Source: Microcaldota archaeon
Lineage (GTDB): Archaea; Micrarchaeota; Micrarchaeia; Norongarragalinales; UBA10210
Direction: 5' to 3'
Assembly: GCA_013331595.1 (NCBI GenBank)
Contig: DUGE01000113.1
Span: forward strand, 21,828-28,932
Length of the DNA stretch: 7,105 nt
A program made the position numbers and the translations under genes. Of this stretch, positions 1-4,510 are shown piece by piece. Positions within the stretch are counted from its first letter, which is position 1; each line of letters opens with the position of its first letter. Under the pieces are notes generated by a model, which was given only the letters and a program-made list of their open reading frames with translations, was not told where the DNA came from and made no database searches.

Positions 1-20
1 TTCAAATCCCGCCGAGTCCA
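1..20 (+). tRNA. 3' end of a tRNA gene, probably tRNA-Ala (truncated by window edge)
   Basis: The first 20 bases are the 3' end of a tRNA: T-loop TTCAAAT (1-7), 3' T-stem strand CCCGC (8-12), 3' acceptor strand CGAGTCC (13-19) and discriminator A73 (20). CCA is not encoded; the next bases are CTAA. The 3' strand is identical to that of the complete tRNA-Ala(GGC) at 1996-2235, including T70, which in that gene forms the G3:U70 pair that identifies alanine tRNAs. It is therefore probably another alanine isoacceptor or a duplicate. The anticodon lies outside the window. The T-loop is intact here, so this copy has no intron at 59/60, unlike the other one. Confidence 0.8.
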
Positions 21-25
21 CTAAC

Positions 26-52
26 TTTTCTTTCTTTGCGAAAGAAAGAAAA
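26..52. repeat. CTTTCTTT palindromic hairpin, 3' flank of tRNA
   Basis: Perfect 12-bp inverted repeat with a 3-nt GCG loop: TTTTCTTTCTTT (26-37) pairs with AAAGAAAGAAAA (41-52). It begins 5 nt after the tRNA discriminator base. The T-rich arm could act as the tRNA's poly-T terminator. It belongs to the same family as the hairpins at 2033-2069, 2182-2207, 2237-2277, 4405-4449 and 4469-4510, but it lacks the ATCAAAGAAA tail. Confidence 0.7.
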
Positions 53-149
53 CTAAAGTAAATTAAACAGTTTCAACAAAAAGAAGTTTCAAGCAATTGC
101 ACGAGCACGGAATTTCCAAACATTACGGAAACAAAAAAAAGGTTTTGAA

Positions 150-1972: not shown

Positions 1973-2031
1973 AAACGCCACACTATCATTAGAGTGGGCT
2001 CGTAGATCAACGGCAGATCGCGTGCATGGCA

Positions 2032-2078
2032 TAAACTTTCTTTGGAAAAGAAAGTTTAATCAAAGAAAGCTTCCATCA
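2032..2078 (+). other. tRNA-Ala intron 1 (position 37/38, 47 nt)
   Basis: A complete BHB motif defines it. The anticodon stem CGTGC/GCACG is followed by a 3-nt bulge CAT (2077-2079) on the 3' side, a 4-bp central helix ATGG (2026-2029)/CCAT (2073-2076), then a 3-nt bulge CAT (2030-2032) on the 5' side. Cuts fall after the second base of each bulge. The intron-internal helix continues as AAACTTTCTTTG (2033-2044) with CAAAGAAAGCTT (2061-2072), 11 of 12 paired. Its body is a member of the repeat family. Confidence 0.9.
2033..2069. repeat. Palindromic repeat copy forming the body of tRNA-Ala intron 1
   Basis: AAACTTTCTTT (2033-2043), loop GGA, AAAGAAAGTTT (2047-2057): a perfect 11-bp hairpin, 12 bp if T2032:A2058 is included. 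It is followed by AAT and a second purine arm CAAAGAAAG (2061-2069). The left arm can pair with either purine arm. The run from TAAACTTTCTTT, and from AAAGAAAGTTTAATCAAAGA onward, is shared with the copy at 2237-2277. Confidence 0.8.
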
Positions 2079-2100
2079 TGCACGAGGCTGCGGGTTCAAA

Positions 2101-2221
2101 AGAAGGCGAAACTACGTTTCTCCTTTCTAAACCTCTTCCTTTCCGAAAAAGAATATTTTTCTTTGGCGCGGCGCCATCGCACCTTTCTTTTTCGGCAAAA
2201 AGAAAGGGGCAAGGCTGAAAA
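2101..2221 (+). other. tRNA-Ala intron 2 (T-loop, position 59/60, 121 nt)
   Basis: BHB model: T-stem GCGGG/CCCGC, 3-nt bulge AAT (2220-2222), central helix TTCA (2095-2098)/TGAA (2216-2219), 3-nt bulge AAA (2099-2101). The helix on the intron side is weak, so this is a relaxed BHB. Inside are a hairpin with GAAAC/GTTTC arms (2108-2120, flanks extend it to about 2101-2128), a GAAAAA/TTTTTC hairpin (2145-2161), and a repeat-family hairpin at 2182-2207. No protein-coding or homing endonuclease signature is present; the 76-aa frame across it is low-complexity. Confidence 0.82.
2182..2207. repeat. Palindromic repeat hairpin inside tRNA-Ala intron 2
   Basis: CCTTTCTTTTT (2182-2192), loop CGGC, AAAAAGAAAGG (2197-2207): perfect 11-bp inverted repeat. 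The arms match the hairpins at 2237-2267 and 4469-4499. The ATCAAAGAAA tail is missing. Confidence 0.75.
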
Positions 2222-2236
2222 TCCCGCCGAGTCCAC

Positions 2237-2277
2237 TAAACTTTCTTTTTAGAAAAAAGAAAGTTTAATCAAAGAAA
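2237..2277. repeat. Palindromic repeat hairpin with tail, 3' flank of tRNA-Ala
   Basis: TAAACTTTCTTTTT (2237-2250), loop AGA, AAAAAGAAAGTTTA (2254-2267): perfect 14-bp hairpin starting two bases after the discriminator base, then the tail ATCAAAGAAA (2268-2277). The T-rich arm may serve as the tRNA terminator. The internal AAGTTTAAT (2261-2269) lies about 27 bp before the HIT start codon and could double as its TATA box. Confidence 0.8.
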
Positions 2278-2291
2278 AAGGAACGATTTGC

Positions 2292-2741
2292 GTGACCGAA
2301 TGCATTTTCTGCAGCATTGCCGAAGGCAAGGCGCACTCCGCGCAATTGGGCGAAAACAAGCACGCCCTTGCCGTTTTGGACGCCTATCCGGTGGTTGAGG
2401 GCCATTCGCTCGTCATTCCAAAGAAACACCACAGGGCGCTGTGGGAAATACCGCGGGAGGAGCTCAACGGCATATTTGACTTGATTATCGAAGTGGAAAA
2501 AAGCCTGTTGCAAAACCTGCATTGCGAGGGCGTGGACTTGCGGCAGCATTACAGGCCGTTCGTTCCCGAAAGCAAGCTTAAGAAAGACCATTTGCACTTC
2601 CACTTGATTCCGCGCAAAAGCTGGGATGAACTATTCAAGAAAGCCGGCACAAAGGAAACGGAATTGCGCAAGGAGCCGGTTAAGAAAGAGCTTGAAAGCC
2701 TCGCGGAAAGGATAAGGGGAAAACAAAAAAATCACAGGTGA
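2292..2741 (+). CDS. HIT-family (histidine triad) nucleotide hydrolase/transferase
   Basis: 149-aa HIT-domain protein; the family cleaves or transfers nucleoside monophosphates from phosphoramidates and dinucleotides in the cytoplasm. The histidine triad HLHFHLIPR follows KKD at about residues 100-108, and the N-terminal CIFC (Cys4, Cys7) followed by VVEGHSLVIPKKHHRAL (34-50) is typical. The usual 'N-x-G-x-x-A-G-Q' segment before the triad is replaced by VDLRQHYRPFVPESKLKKD, a subtype with a longer insert whose substrate I cannot name. The C-terminus is a Lys/Glu-rich helix. GTG at 2292 is the only reasonable start; no clear Shine-Dalgarno sequence is seen, and a TATA-like AAGTTTAAT at 2261-2269 would make it nearly leaderless. 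It is followed within 4 nt by a 50-aa gene. Confidence 0.9.
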   Translation: MTECIFCSIAEGKAHSAQLGENKHALAVLDAYPVVEGHSLVIPKKHHRALWEIPREELNGIFDLIIEVEKSLLQNLHCEGVDLRQHYRPFVPESKLKKDHLHFHLIPRKSWDELFKKAGTKETELRKEPVKKELESLAERIRGKQKNHR

Positions 2742-2745
2742 TAAC

Positions 2746-2898
2746 ATGAGCGTTGAGTACGGAGAGTTCAAGGGAAACAAGATGATTATCCTCAAGAGGA
2801 GCGAGACGGACAATTTCCCGTTCCAGTTCGGCAAAGGCAAAGCCAAACTGATCGTGGAGAATTTCGAGGCCATAAAGAAATTCGCGGAAGAAGAATGA
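2746..2898 (+). CDS. Conserved-looking 50-aa protein coupled to the HIT gene
   Basis: 50-aa protein starting MSVEYGEFKGNKMIILKR and ending IKKFAEEE. A strong AGGTGAT Shine-Dalgarno sequence (2736-2742) overlaps the HIT stop codon, with ATG at 2746, so the two genes are translated from one message. The sequence suggests two short beta strands (YGEFKGNKMIILKR), a glycine turn (FGKGKAKLI) and a C-terminal helix (ENFEAIKKFAEEE). I recall similar short 'F-x-F-G-x-x-K-A-K-L-I' proteins in DPANN and other archaeal genomes annotated only as hypothetical; their function is unknown. The strong ribosome binding site and regular composition argue that it is real. Confidence 0.78.
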   Translation: MSVEYGEFKGNKMIILKRSETDNFPFQFGKGKAKLIVENFEAIKKFAEEE

Positions 2899-2918
2899 AC
2901 AGGCTGCCTACACTAAAG

Positions 2919-2928
2919 TTTTCTTTTT
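2919..2928 (+). terminator. Poly-T terminator of the HIT/50-aa operon
   Basis: TTTTCTTTTT lies 20 nt after the stop codon of the 50-aa gene and is followed by GGGG. A U-rich archaeal terminator is the likeliest reading. Confidence 0.5.
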
Positions 2929-3005
2929 GGGGTTGACAGACCTTCGTTGCAGAACTGCGGTTCTGCGACATGCCGCAGAGCTTTGCTCTGCGTGCATCTT
3001 TTAGC

Positions 3006-3024
3006 AAAAGAAAAAGGGCGGCCT
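3006..3024 (-). terminator. Terminator of the 42-aa membrane peptide gene
   Basis: On the - strand GGCC-ACTAAA-GGCC spans the stop codon and is followed by GCCCTTTTTCTTTTGC. This small stem followed by a T-tract directly after the coding region fits an intrinsic terminator. Confidence 0.5.
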
Positions 3025-3153
3025 TTAGTGGCCTTCCTTTGTCGAGCCTACTACTAGCAAAGTGCCGAGAATGCCGAGGGAAGTCAAGTCCGAACCGGCA
3101 AAGGCCACTACTGCAAGCAATGCTATTGCGAGCCACAAGCTGCGTTCATCCAT
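3025..3153 (-). CDS. 42-aa hydrophobic membrane peptide
   Basis: Starts MDERSLWLAIALLAVVAFAG and continues as SDLTSLGILGTLLVVGSTKE then GH. Two hydrophobic stretches (residues 6-19 and 26-36) suggest one or two short membrane segments. A textbook Shine-Dalgarno GAGGTGG (- strand, 3168-3162) lies 8 nt before the ATG at 3153, so this start is preferred over the upstream in-frame ATG at 3210, which would give 61 aa. A T-rich terminator follows the stop. I do not recognise a family. It lies 78 bp downstream of the cysteine-rich membrane protein gene on the same strand and could share its transcript; a possible TATA-like GAGTTTAATTTCG is at 3186-3198. Confidence 0.65.
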   Translation of the reverse strand: MDERSLWLAIALLAVVAFAGSDLTSLGILGTLLVVGSTKEGH

Positions 3154-3231
3154 ATCCAAACCCACCTCTAATAGAACAAAACCCACGAAATTAAACTCTG
3201 CAGGGGGCACCCAAATTACTCCAGCACGAAT

Positions 3232-3693
3232 TCAGCCGTATTTCTGGGCGATTTCCTGGAAAGTTATTTCCCGCTGGTATCCTTCAGCGCTCATCAGGCA
3301 CGACCCTGAAGCCTTGCTGCACGATGCAGTTGCAGGCTTGTTTCCGGCGATCGTCTGCATAATGCAGGAATAGTCTTTCCTCCCGCTGGAAGCGCTTTCA
3401 CTGCACGAACAGCCGGAAACCGCCCAAGCGCTGCTTCCAGCAAGCTCCTTCGCCAAACCAACGCAAACTTGCCCCGCTTTCACGCTATTTAGCGAATCAA
3501 AAACGTATTGGTATTGGTTTGGAGTTTGTGGTGCGCCTGAAGGCGCATAGCTTGATGCAACCGGCGATGGAATAATCGGGCTTGCAACGGGCTTCGGCGT
3601 AAGCCCGGTGGAAGGCGAGCCTCCAATGAAAAAAAACAGGATGGCGAAAAGCAGGAGTATTGCCGCAATTGCCGCCATTTCGCCAAAATCCAT
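3232..3693 (-). CDS. Membrane-anchored six-cysteine extracellular protein, unknown family
   Basis: 153-aa protein. An N-terminal membrane segment (about residues 7-24, AAIAAILLLFAILFFFIGG) is followed by a Pro/Ser/Ala-rich linker (26-60) and a small domain with six cysteines (77, 95, 97, 110, 125, 132), an even number compatible with three disulfides outside the cell. The N-terminus lacks charged residues before the hydrophobic core other than Asp2 and Glu5, so it is a signal anchor or uncleaved signal peptide. The ATG at 3693 has GGTGA 6 nt upstream. GNAT is 47 bp upstream on the same strand. I do not recognise the C-terminal domain. Small disulfide-rich domains can bind ligands or sit on the cell surface, but nothing here identifies the role. 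Confidence 0.78.
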   Translation of the reverse strand: MDFGEMAAIAAILLLFAILFFFIGGSPSTGLTPKPVASPIIPSPVASSYAPSGAPQTPNQYQYVFDSLNSVKAGQVCVGLAKELAGSSAWAVSGCSCSESASSGRKDYSCIMQTIAGNKPATASCSKASGSCLMSAEGYQREITFQEIAQKYG

Positions 3694-3740
3694 GCCTATT
3701 CACCATTACGAAAAAACCGCGCTTGAAGCTTGAATTCGCT

Positions 3741-4271
3741 CTAATTTCGGCGGAATACGCGCAAGGGGATGCGCCGTCCCGCTCTCATCACAAAATCCCG
3801 CACCGGATGCTCTTTGAATCCCAGTCGTTTAACGAGCTTAACTGCGGCAGGGTTTTCGGCATGGGTTCTGCACAGAAAAGCTCCTACCCCCCGCGTTTCA
3901 AAGTGCGTCATAAGGGCATGGACTGCATCTGCACCATACCCACTCCTGCGCGAGCCAGCTGCCACTTCCACGCCAATCTCGTGCGAGGGAAGGCCCGCCC
4001 TGGAGAATTTCTCTGGAGAGTAGGTCAGCCGCACGCTGCCAATCTCGCCGCCAGTTTTTCGGTCGTGGATGGAGTAGAAATGAGCTTGACCTCCTTTGAT
4101 TGCCTCGCGAAGAACATTCGCGAGCGTTTCGGGTGGGACGGCTAAAACGTCCCCATAGAAAAGCGGCTCCCTGCGACCTCGTGCGACCAACGCTCTAACG
4201 CGCTCGGCGAATTCTGGCCCCTCAACGCTCCACGGTTTCAGCACCACTCTCTTGCCAGTTATATCCTGCAT
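3741..4271 (-). CDS. GNAT-family N-acetyltransferase (RimJ/RimL-like)
   Basis: 176-aa GCN5-related acetyltransferase that transfers acetyl from acetyl-CoA to an amine. The N-terminus TGKRVVLKPWSVEG (5-18) is the RimJ/RimL-type first strand. GGEIGSVRLTY (74-84) forms the central hairpin. Motif A is IGVEVAAGSRRSGYGADAV (99-117) with the pyrophosphate-binding loop RRSGYG at 108-113. Motif B is ENPAAVKLVKRLGF (139-152) with Asn140 and the terminal Gly-Phe. The ATG at 4271 lies 31 bp from the centre of a TATA box, so the message is probably leaderless. The substrate cannot be told; family members acetylate ribosomal protein N-termini, small amines or antibiotics. It sits between tRNA-Val and the six-cysteine protein gene. 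Confidence 0.87.
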   Translation of the reverse strand: MQDITGKRVVLKPWSVEGPEFAERVRALVARGRREPLFYGDVLAVPPETLANVLREAIKGGQAHFYSIHDRKTGGEIGSVRLTYSPEKFSRAGLPSHEIGVEVAAGSRRSGYGADAVHALMTHFETRGVGAFLCRTHAENPAAVKLVKRLGFKEHPVRDFVMRAGRRIPLRVFRRN

Positions 4272-4292
4272 AAAAGAAGTTGTGCAAAAGTC

Positions 4293-4307
4293 TTAATTAA
4301 GTATAAC
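4293..4307 (-). promoter_or_regulatory. TATA box of the GNAT gene
   Basis: - strand TTATACTTAATTAAG is centred about 31 bp from the ATG, which fits a leaderless transcript. Confidence 0.5.
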
Positions 4308-4325
4308 CGCTTCAAATCCTGCCCG

Positions 4326-4336
4326 AAAGAAAAACG
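4326..4336 (-). terminator. Poly-T terminator of tRNA-Val
   Basis: Immediately after the tRNA 3' end the - strand reads CTCCCGTTTTTCTTTCGGG. TTTTTCTTT is a U-rich tract enclosed by CCCG/CGGG, which fits archaeal termination. Confidence 0.55.
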
Positions 4337-4398
4337 GGAGTGGGCCCGCAGGGAATCGAACCCCGAGTCTTTCGCACGTCAAGCGAACGTCTTACCAA

Positions 4399-4450
4399 TG
4401 CCGAACTTTTCTTTCTTTGGTTAAGCTTTCTTTCAGCAGAAAGAAAAGTC
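4399..4450 (-). other. tRNA-Val intron (D-loop, 16/17, 52 nt)
   Basis: BHB on the - strand: central helix TCGA (4456-4453)/TCGG (4404-4401) with one T·G pair, 5' bulge ATG (4452-4450) and 3' bulge CAT (4400-4398). Cuts after the second base of each bulge restore a normal D-loop. The intron helix is a perfect 11 bp, ACTTTTCTTTC (4449-4439)/GAAAGAAAAGT (4415-4405). The outer exon-side helix is essentially absent, so this is a relaxed motif at a non-canonical position. Confidence 0.85.
4405..4449 (-). repeat. Palindromic repeat copy forming the body of the tRNA-Val intron
   Basis: The - strand segment GAAAGAAAGCTTAACCAAAG followed by AAAG lines up with AAAAGAAAGTTTAATCAAAG plus AAAG of tRNA-Ala intron 1, with only three substitutions. 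A short CTTTC-TGCT-GAAAG hairpin competes with the long BHB helix for the same pyrimidine arm. Confidence 0.75.
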
Positions 4451-4468
4451 ATTCGACTACGAGCCCAC

Positions 4469-4510
4469 GAACCTTTCTTTTTGTGAAAAAGAAAGGTTCA
4501 TCAAAGAAAA
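4469..4510. repeat. Palindromic repeat hairpin with tail in the 5' leader of tRNA-Val
   Basis: GAACCTTTCTTTTT (4469-4482), loop GTG, AAAAAGAAAGGTTC (4486-4499): perfect 14-bp hairpin two bases from G1 of the tRNA, then the tail ATCAAAGAAAA (4500-4510). The tail points away from the tRNA, as it does in the 3' flank copy at tRNA-Ala. It lies between the probable TATA box and the tRNA, so it should be transcribed. Confidence 0.8.

Follow-up and report, generated by a model that had tools for sequence, protein, structure and literature searches.

A palindromic repeat family in and around transfer RNA genes of a Micrarchaeota lineage is a candidate source of archaeal introns

Introners of eukaryotes are multi-copy elements that have turned into spliced, spliceosomal introns, and prokaryotes carry short palindromic non-coding repeats in many copies, such as the palindromes of the REP/RAYT system (repetitive extragenic palindromes and their associated tyrosine transposases) and miniature inverted-repeat transposable elements (MITEs). 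For archaea, earlier reports describe transfer RNA (tRNA) introns that were transposed in Thermoproteales by an unknown mechanism (PMC4090602; Fujishima et al. 2010 as described there and in PMC4033280) and tie intron insertion, archaeal included, to transposition-like events with direct repeats of 4–30 bp (PMC11782384). Here we analyse 7,105 nucleotides of DNA from a Micrarchaeota archaeon (contig DUGE01000113.1, positions 21,828–28,932; this whole stretch is the window) in which one family of palindromic repeats makes up both the apparent introns of tRNA genes and units that abut the ends of such genes. In its behaviour the family resembles a mobile element with a preference for stable-RNA genes. 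Comparison with related genomes leads us to favour, at somewhat better than even, the explanation that the palindromes form one superfamily of small non-coding, apparently mobile elements that supply bulge–helix–bulge (BHB) introns in the manner of introners, and the family is a good candidate for a route by which new introns are acquired in this archaeal group. A repeat family with free copies, duplicated ends, orthologues with and without the element and a known type of endonuclease makes the gain of archaeal tRNA introns testable.

One repeat family in introns and at tRNA ends

A hairpin with TTTCTTT and AAAGAAA arms is common to all inserts in the tRNA genes of the window and to all units flanking these genes, and most of them hold a third box of this kind. 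Perfect hairpins of at least 11 bp with loops of 3–8 nt number five in the window, against a mean of 0.03 and a maximum of 1 in 100 dinucleotide shuffles. An initial annotation of this DNA had listed six copies of the palindrome at three tRNA loci, and all six are present, with coordinates exact to a few bases; two entries are better described otherwise, 2182–2207 being the hairpin of a module (M2) inside a T-loop insert and 4469–4510 lying on the 5′ side of a minus-strand tRNA-Val. The tail of copy 26–52 (CTAAAGTAAA) differs from that of the other units, and a free-standing copy at 2911–3030 had been missed.

The intron bodies of tRNA-Ala and tRNA-Val, reported as near-identical, agree at 17 of the 20 positions compared. 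Introns and flanks do belong to one family, as had been claimed: intron 1 of tRNA-Ala matches the copy in the 3′ flank of the same gene at 88% over 41 columns (E 7.5e-9 in a comparison of 150 × 150 bases). In a six-sequence alignment of introns, flanks and a copy from 23S ribosomal RNA (rRNA), all 78 of 78 cells in the arms are paired, with changes on both sides in 4 of the 14 pairs, a result that leans towards the tested geometry because the six sequences were chosen for it. The unit at the 5′ flank of tRNA-Val shows a paired change in its arms between the window and G284, the closest relative examined.

Inspected by eye in the window, G284 and a further genome (G277), flank units place the hairpin at the tRNA and direct their tail, ATCAAAGAAA or a variant of it, outward, on either side of the gene. 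The motif CGAGYCCA, which is the tRNA-Ala 3′ end or the tRNA-Val 5′ end read backwards, precedes ten flank units (three in the window, four in G284 and three at L083 of G277). It also occurs at the 5′ ends of the window tRNA-Ala and of the tRNA-Ala(CGC) of G284, where the unit is absent, and pattern matches outside G284 have a unit, by eye, at 9 of 23 places (one of them L083 again; one match is a duplicate end). That CGAGYCCA precedes every flank unit could not be upheld as a rule, since it fails in G277 for tRNA-Cys and tRNA-Val(CAC).

The loop of the free-standing copy holds two further hairpins at about 2944–2998 (GCAGAAC..GTTCTGC and GCAGAGC..GCTCTGC). Inserts resembling these two hairpins fill the loop of a TTTCTTT hairpin, by eye, at L125, L135, L209, L219, L224, L231 and L257. 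The loop inserts at 2911–3030 and at similar loci look as if a second element had targeted the loop of the first.

Census and orthologues in a close relative

The HIT protein of the window led to L001, a locus with MinD, LSm and Alba nearby, from there to genome G001 and on to G284, of which 669 kb of about 700 kb were covered. The HIT protein of G284 is 68% identical to that of the window, and in both a tRNA-Ala lies upstream and a tRNA-Val downstream. Among 35 perfect hairpins of at least 10 bp in G284, 14 have TTTCTTT and AAAGAAA arms; 12 of the 14 lie in or directly beside tRNA genes, one lies in 23S rRNA, where it occupies the tip of an rRNA helix with about 47 extra bases, and one, a free M2 copy (L100), is intergenic. 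The enrichment at tRNA genes for which the initial annotation proposed to look is thus present in G284, and the unit is not found equally often after ordinary genes. With 13 of the 14 hairpins at genes for tRNA or rRNA and only one away from RNA genes, the reading as ordinary intrinsic terminators was rejected. Separately, the 16S rRNA gene of G284 (L144:5311–7551) measures 2,241 nt against a model of 1,478 positions and holds a long insert, perhaps an intron.

By eye, family inserts occur in ten tRNA genes of G284 (Ala-GGC, Val-CAC, Leu-CAG, Thr-TGT, Arg-TCT, Arg-CCG, Glu-TTC, Met-CAT, Lys-TTT and Ser-CGA), placed in the D-loop, at about 30/31, at 37/38 or in the T-loop, and flank units occur at three tRNA-Ala genes and at tRNA-Val-GAC. 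Excision of a single segment led ARAGORN to call the expected isotype, among others, in nine of these genes, and in the tenth (Met) in a separate test; wrong isotypes were called too.

Orthologous tRNAs with and without the element, a comparison suggested at the outset, are found at both loci. In the tRNA-Ala(GGC) of G284, the intron at 37/38 and the unit in the 3′ flank are present and the T-loop insert is absent; the tRNA-Val(GAC) of G284 has the 5′ flank unit and no intron. No counterpart of the free copy at 2911–3030 was found at the orthologous place in G284. The T-loop insert of the window has nhmmer relatives in other genes of G284, namely tRNA-Glu (E 3e-20), tRNA-Arg-CCG (7e-19) and tRNA-Met (3e-11), and the D-loop insert has one relative there, in tRNA-Val(CAC).

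Intron and flank of tRNA-Ala share one sequence version per genome, AATCAAAG in the window and AGTAAAG in G284. Orthologous introns unlike the flank copies, an outcome named beforehand as one that would speak against the proposed element, were therefore not seen for tRNA-Ala: intron and flank of G284 match, in another version. It follows that the two changed together between the genomes, which plain separate descent would not yield; the joint change would reflect either renewed insertion or gene conversion.

The tRNA genes of the window

Run on the unprocessed window, ARAGORN and Rfam gave no tRNA, and when introns were permitted ARAGORN returned a wrong tRNA-Ser at 4340–4466. The genes were delimited by hand and confirmed by ARAGORN on the joined exons (Table 1): excision of 2032–2078 together with 2101–2221 restores a standard tRNA-Ala(GGC), and excision of the D-loop insert restores a standard tRNA-Val(GAC). 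The D-loop intron measures 54 nt against the empty site of G284, and 50 nt (4400–4449) by the best relaxed BHB fit. Of its five M1 copies, the module that opens intron 2 has four in tRNA genes and the fifth (L142) at a T-loop-like site from which no tRNA could be restored. The last 19 letters of the tRNA end at the edge of the window are identical to 2219–2237, the end of tRNA-Ala. The window also encodes Alba, LSm, DUF460 and HIT proteins, an archaeal gene content, and two relatives of its HIT protein (76% and 70% identical) are labelled Micrarchaeota and Norongarragalinales.

Table 1 Features of the window that belong to the repeat family or to the tRNA genes at which it is found
Feature	Coordinates	Strand	Basis or remark
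Further tRNA, 3′ end (T-loop to acceptor), cut by window edge	1–22	+	contains CGAGTCCA
Type A unit abutting tRNA end 1–22; hairpin 26–52	23–64	+	12-bp perfect stem
tRNA-Ala(GGC), position 1 to 73, two inserts	1996–2235	+	ARAGORN on joined exons; G284 orthologue in same place
Intron 1 of tRNA-Ala, position 37/38, type A unit	2032–2078	+	hairpin 2032–2058; related intron in G284 orthologue
Intron 2 of tRNA-Ala, T-loop, 121 nt, modules M1 + M2	2101–2221	+	nhmmer relatives in G284 tRNA-Glu, tRNA-Arg, tRNA-Met
Module M1 of intron 2	2100–2148	+	nhmmer: 5 copies at E<1e-15 (window + G284)
Module M2, right-hand part of intron 2, with box TTTTTCTTTGG, a spacer, hairpin 2182–2207 and end GGCAAGGC	2154–2215	+	alignment A3, model R1
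Type A unit abutting tRNA-Ala 3′ end; hairpin 2237–2267, tail ATCAAAGAAA 2268–2277	2237–2277	+	
Free-standing relative, no tRNA adjacent	2911–3030	.	arms with TTTTCTTTTT and AAAAGAAAAA, outer repeat CACTAAAG/CTTTAGTG; by eye
tRNA-Val(GAC), position 73 to 1 in + coordinates, D-loop insert	4341–4466	−	ARAGORN on joined exons
D-loop intron of tRNA-Val, type A unit	4396–4449	−	relative in G284 tRNA-Val(CAC)
Type A unit abutting tRNA-Val 5′ end; hairpin 4469–4499, tail ATCAAAGAAA	4469–4509	+	same place occupied in G284

Splicing motif and endonuclease

The inserts of the window are candidate BHB introns. By eye, intron 1 offers ATGG/CCAT as a helix of 4 bp, flanked by the 3-nt bulges CAT and CAT, intron 2 offers a TTCA/TGAA helix with bulges AAA and AAT, and the tRNA-Val intron fits a BHB motif only with relaxed bulges. 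A strict BHB script, which we judge too strict, matched neither the 37/38 nor the T-loop site, inner helices being imperfect or absent there; that of intron 1 is mismatched after 2 bp. The edges of T-loop introns follow the exon (by eye), with TTCA/TGAA in the window and TTCG/CGAA in the tRNA-Arg-CCG of G284.

The domain of the splicing endonuclease (EndA) was found in 25 of the 29 genomes of the order to which G284 belongs. The EndA of G283 (385 aa) matches PDB 4fz2, which we take to be the ARMAN-2 epsilon2 tRNA endonuclease (PMC12397907), over residues 7–385 of 385 (E 8e-128). On this match, the splicing endonuclease of the order is predicted to be of the epsilon2-like, broad-specificity type; enzymes of the epsilon2 type are reported to cut introns at various positions (PMC4033280).

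Spread across the order and phylum

A model of M2 (R1), carried by sequence since its RNAalifold structure was poor, matches at least 22 of the 29 genomes of the order at E≤0.05 and at least 10 of the 29 at E≤1e-7. Under stricter filters, 18 of 301 genomes of the phylum have matches at E≤1e-5, 11 of the 18 belonging to this order. M2-like matches at that threshold lie outside the order in G039, G040, G041, G044, G056, G059 and G100.

Contexts were assessed in 43 M2 copies, 41 from 40 stretches around strong matches and two from G284. Excising one segment around M2 gave a tRNA across the joint at 16 of the 43 sites, ten of which are intron-like, and at 7 of 8 further sites of the window and G284 (23/51 together), compared with 2 of 60 random sites, one of the two lying inside a real tRNA-Met locus. 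Such a single cut misses tRNAs with a second insert, the window tRNA-Ala among them. ARAGORN called wrong isotypes at true loci also, and nothing was restored at L142, at L135 or, with a single cut, at the window tRNA-Ala. Other M2 copies, L194, L203, L211 and L213 among them, are located at protein genes or, as judged by eye, in ordinary intergenic DNA.

For type A units, the model (R2) was built from the six-sequence alignment, a 15-unit alignment (A2) being too gappy and the tRNA-Val 5′ copy of G284 being left out because of a misplaced gap in alignment A4. It has 21 matches in 7 of the 29 genomes at E≤1e-3, of which 12 lie in or within about 50 nt of a tRNA, one in 23S rRNA and two at duplicated protein-gene ends; the match at L267, judged by coordinates only, is inside an intron-bearing tRNA-Thr. 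In two long T-loop inserts of G287 (L224 and L230), the left half is, by eye, an M2 in reverse or a relative of type A, the centre resembles TTTGATTTGCAAATCAAA closely and an M2 stands on the right, which makes each insert almost palindromic over its full length.

Duplicated gene ends beside copies

At 11 of the 43 copies there is a direct repeat with its right copy beginning no more than 10 nt from M2, compared with 1 of 500 random G284 sites drawn without matching for nearness to tRNAs (Fisher p 2e-12); L204 and L205 are similar tRNA-Thr copies and may not be independent. In 6 of the 11 cases what is repeated is the 3′ end of a tRNA, beginning in the T-loop (core of 17–20 nt at 95–100%; at L205, 34 columns at 82%). 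At L214, L216, L226 and L229 an open frame has its start or its end repeated (31–38 nt, about 80%), and at L227 the repeat measures 41 nt at 80%. The array at L229 has a repeat of 80–94 nt; in it a protein-gene start (MIPSMDPKQLASMM...) occurs three times or more, with M2-like hairpins in between. At L199, the tRNA-Val 3′ end stands three times in a row, with a type A unit and M2-like units between. Type A units are likewise found with duplicated ends: at L247 (G298) one lies, by eye, between 21-nt perfect repeats of a tRNA-Ala 3′ end, and L266 and L271 have type A units with repeated gene ends.

Search for a mobilising enzyme

Profiles for three enzyme families were run against the 29 genomes of the order, ten of which are strong M2 carriers. 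The Y1_Tnp profile matched 7 of the 29 and none in G284; Cas1 matched 4 of the 29; and a tyrosine recombinase (Phage_integrase profile) was found in 14 of the 29, including four of the ten strong carriers (G281, G287, G289 and G292), and was not found in the other six (G282, G283, G284, G285, G293 and G294). The linked transposase that the initial annotation had suggested thus did not turn up, none of the three profiles giving a family common to the carriers. The absence of an enzyme is weak evidence, because the carrier genomes are taken to be metagenome-assembled genomes (MAGs).

How the introns may have arisen

The course of events that we propose starts from elements of about 40–60 nt, combined up to about 150 nt, in this Micrarchaeota lineage. 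Each has a TTTCTTT box, an AAAGAAA arm that matches it and, in most cases, another box of this kind beyond the arm, which would allow the arms to pair in more than one way. Copies would come to lie at tRNA and rRNA genes and, less often, at other gene ends. Within a tRNA, the inner helix of a BHB motif could form through pairing with the far box; the intron edges would match the exon, and the copy would then be excised by the epsilon2-type tRNA endonuclease of the order. That an element inserts and becomes an intron was already the reading of the initial annotation, with which the family relationship, the enrichment, the presence or absence in orthologues and the copies beside duplicated gene ends agree; no linked transposase was found. 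Splicing, the direction from element to intron, mobility (present or past) and a mobilising activity are what we infer.

A bolder form of this proposal is a true archaeal counterpart of introners, in which the box pairs near or far and the element moves as a hairpin, is spliced through the BHB motif and carries or swaps gene ends on insertion. We regard it as quite possible, at rather less than an even chance. A T-loop-interrupted tRNA would then be one whose original 3′ end has been replaced by an end borne by the element, and the missing mechanism of archaeal tRNA (and rRNA) intron gain would be in hand.

Several results weigh against the element proposal. The carriers have no transposase, tyrosine recombinase or Cas1 in common (of the ten strong carriers, G289 is the only one with a Y1 transposase match), and the search for EndA found none in G284, which is an incomplete MAG. 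The T-loop intron 2 is without a continuous inner helix and was not listed by the strict BHB script. Gene conversion could be an alternative source of the likeness between intron and flank inside a genome. Six of the 16 restored joints (L197, L199, L202, L204, L205 and L215) are not introns, because an intact tRNA precedes the unit and the duplicated end is merely swapped in, which leaves the 10 of 43 given above as intron-like, and 5 of the 21 R2 matches have neither an RNA gene nor a duplication in view.

Further points of this kind concern the duplications, for which the random sites were not matched for tRNA nearness. An adjacent repeat is absent at 32 of the 43 M2 copies, and among type A model matches 2 of the 20 tested have a repeat within 10 nt, with two more further off. 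Flanking duplication was found at 0 of 7 units of the window and 0 of 7 units of G284 (unit 26–64 had only 25 bases on its left), the sole repeat match in that test being two type A units against each other. As to the target duplications for which the initial annotation proposed to look, direct repeats that might represent them lie beside M2 copies (11/43) and are missing at the window and G284 units (0/14), and the duplications at protein-gene ends are unlike plain target-site duplications. In six pairs of the latter, picked as coding, 29 of 35 differences fall at third codon positions and none at second positions; in each pair one copy closes a longer open frame, from which the other appears detached. 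Both copies thus seem to have been coding after they diverged, and to have diverged before separation, whereas after a plain insertion duplication the detached copy would be free to decay. We are undecided between a gene end imported with the element, as in integration at an attachment (att) site, and a copy that is still in use.

One alternative, of the kind described for Thermoproteales, makes the introns primary: they would pass between tRNAs, with reverse splicing or recombination as conceivable routes, and the flank and free copies would be by-products. Related inserts in many different tRNAs, the many M2 copies in or beside tRNA genes and the precedent reported for Thermoproteales (PMC4033280 and PMC4090602) speak for this course. 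However, it sits poorly with free-standing copies and with protein-gene-end copies that have duplications on DNA, and units that abut both 5′ and 3′ tRNA ends with the tail outward (by eye) are unexpected for a reverse-spliced intron; we consider it unlikely, at something like one chance in a handful.

Less likely still is serial site-specific integration, in which the repeats are remnants of plasmids or viruses with att sites over gene ends, each integrant bringing its own working end, the hairpins are part of the att structure and introns arrive together with the new gene end, as modelled by Sugahara et al. 2012 (PMC3293823). The almost purely synonymous differences between duplicated gene ends fit it, as do the arrays of tRNA 3′ ends with hairpins between them (L199) and of a gene start (L229), and tRNA ends are classical att sites (PMC3293823). 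Yet mostly just about 40 to 150 nt separate the copies, the integrase was not found in six of the ten strong carriers (MAGs), and the copies in D-loops, anticodon loops and 23S rRNA without duplication are left unexplained.

That the hairpins are functional terminators or tRNA end-processing signals, alike by composition and with convergent introns, is very improbable: arms conserved as pairs and a tRNA-Val 5′ flank copy kept between the window and G284 would suit it, but the census of G284 has only one of 14 hairpins away from RNA genes, introns and flanks have the third box and its spacing in common, and units lie 5′ of tRNAs, within tRNA and rRNA genes and at duplicated gene ends.

Relation to known systems

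The proposed element resembles introners in having many related copies, some of them outside genes, and presence or absence among orthologues; here the products are apparent BHB introns of tRNAs. It differs from REP/RAYT palindromes and MITEs in that G284 is without a Y1 transposase, copies are concentrated at tRNA genes and the duplications, of about 17–41 nt, are of gene ends. As for a casposon-derived element, Cas1 was found among the ten strong carriers only in G289. Among the open-licence PMC papers listed by our searches, none reports a palindromic element of this kind in Micrarchaeota, by title or start of abstract.

Among archaeal systems, the ARMAN-type epsilon2 tRNA endonuclease (PMC12397907 and PMC4033280) is the same type of enzyme as that predicted for the order, and accounts for the removal of introns and not for their gain. 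The intron-rich tRNA sets of Asgard archaea likewise have introns at non-canonical positions, and a passage on them in PMC11291895 names no shared element. The direct repeats described in PMC11782384 lie at the splice borders of 213 introns, whereas those reported here are gene ends beside a repeat family, and none is found at the introns of the window. The mobile-element model for Caldiarchaeum (Sugahara et al. 2012, PMC3293823) likewise ties intron gain to integration at a tRNA with a repeat of the tRNA end; its insert is 1.8 kb long with a predicted recombinase, whereas the inserts here are short, gene-free and present in many copies. With the transposed introns of Thermoproteales, the family shares the occurrence of similar introns in different tRNAs (relatives of window intron 2 in tRNA-Glu, tRNA-Arg and tRNA-Met of G284), and it differs in its palindromic plan and in having copies outside tRNAs, abutting tRNA ends, in 23S rRNA and beside duplicated gene ends. 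Transposition of introns among archaeal tRNAs is thus already known; what would be new is a visible palindromic element with free and gene-end copies.

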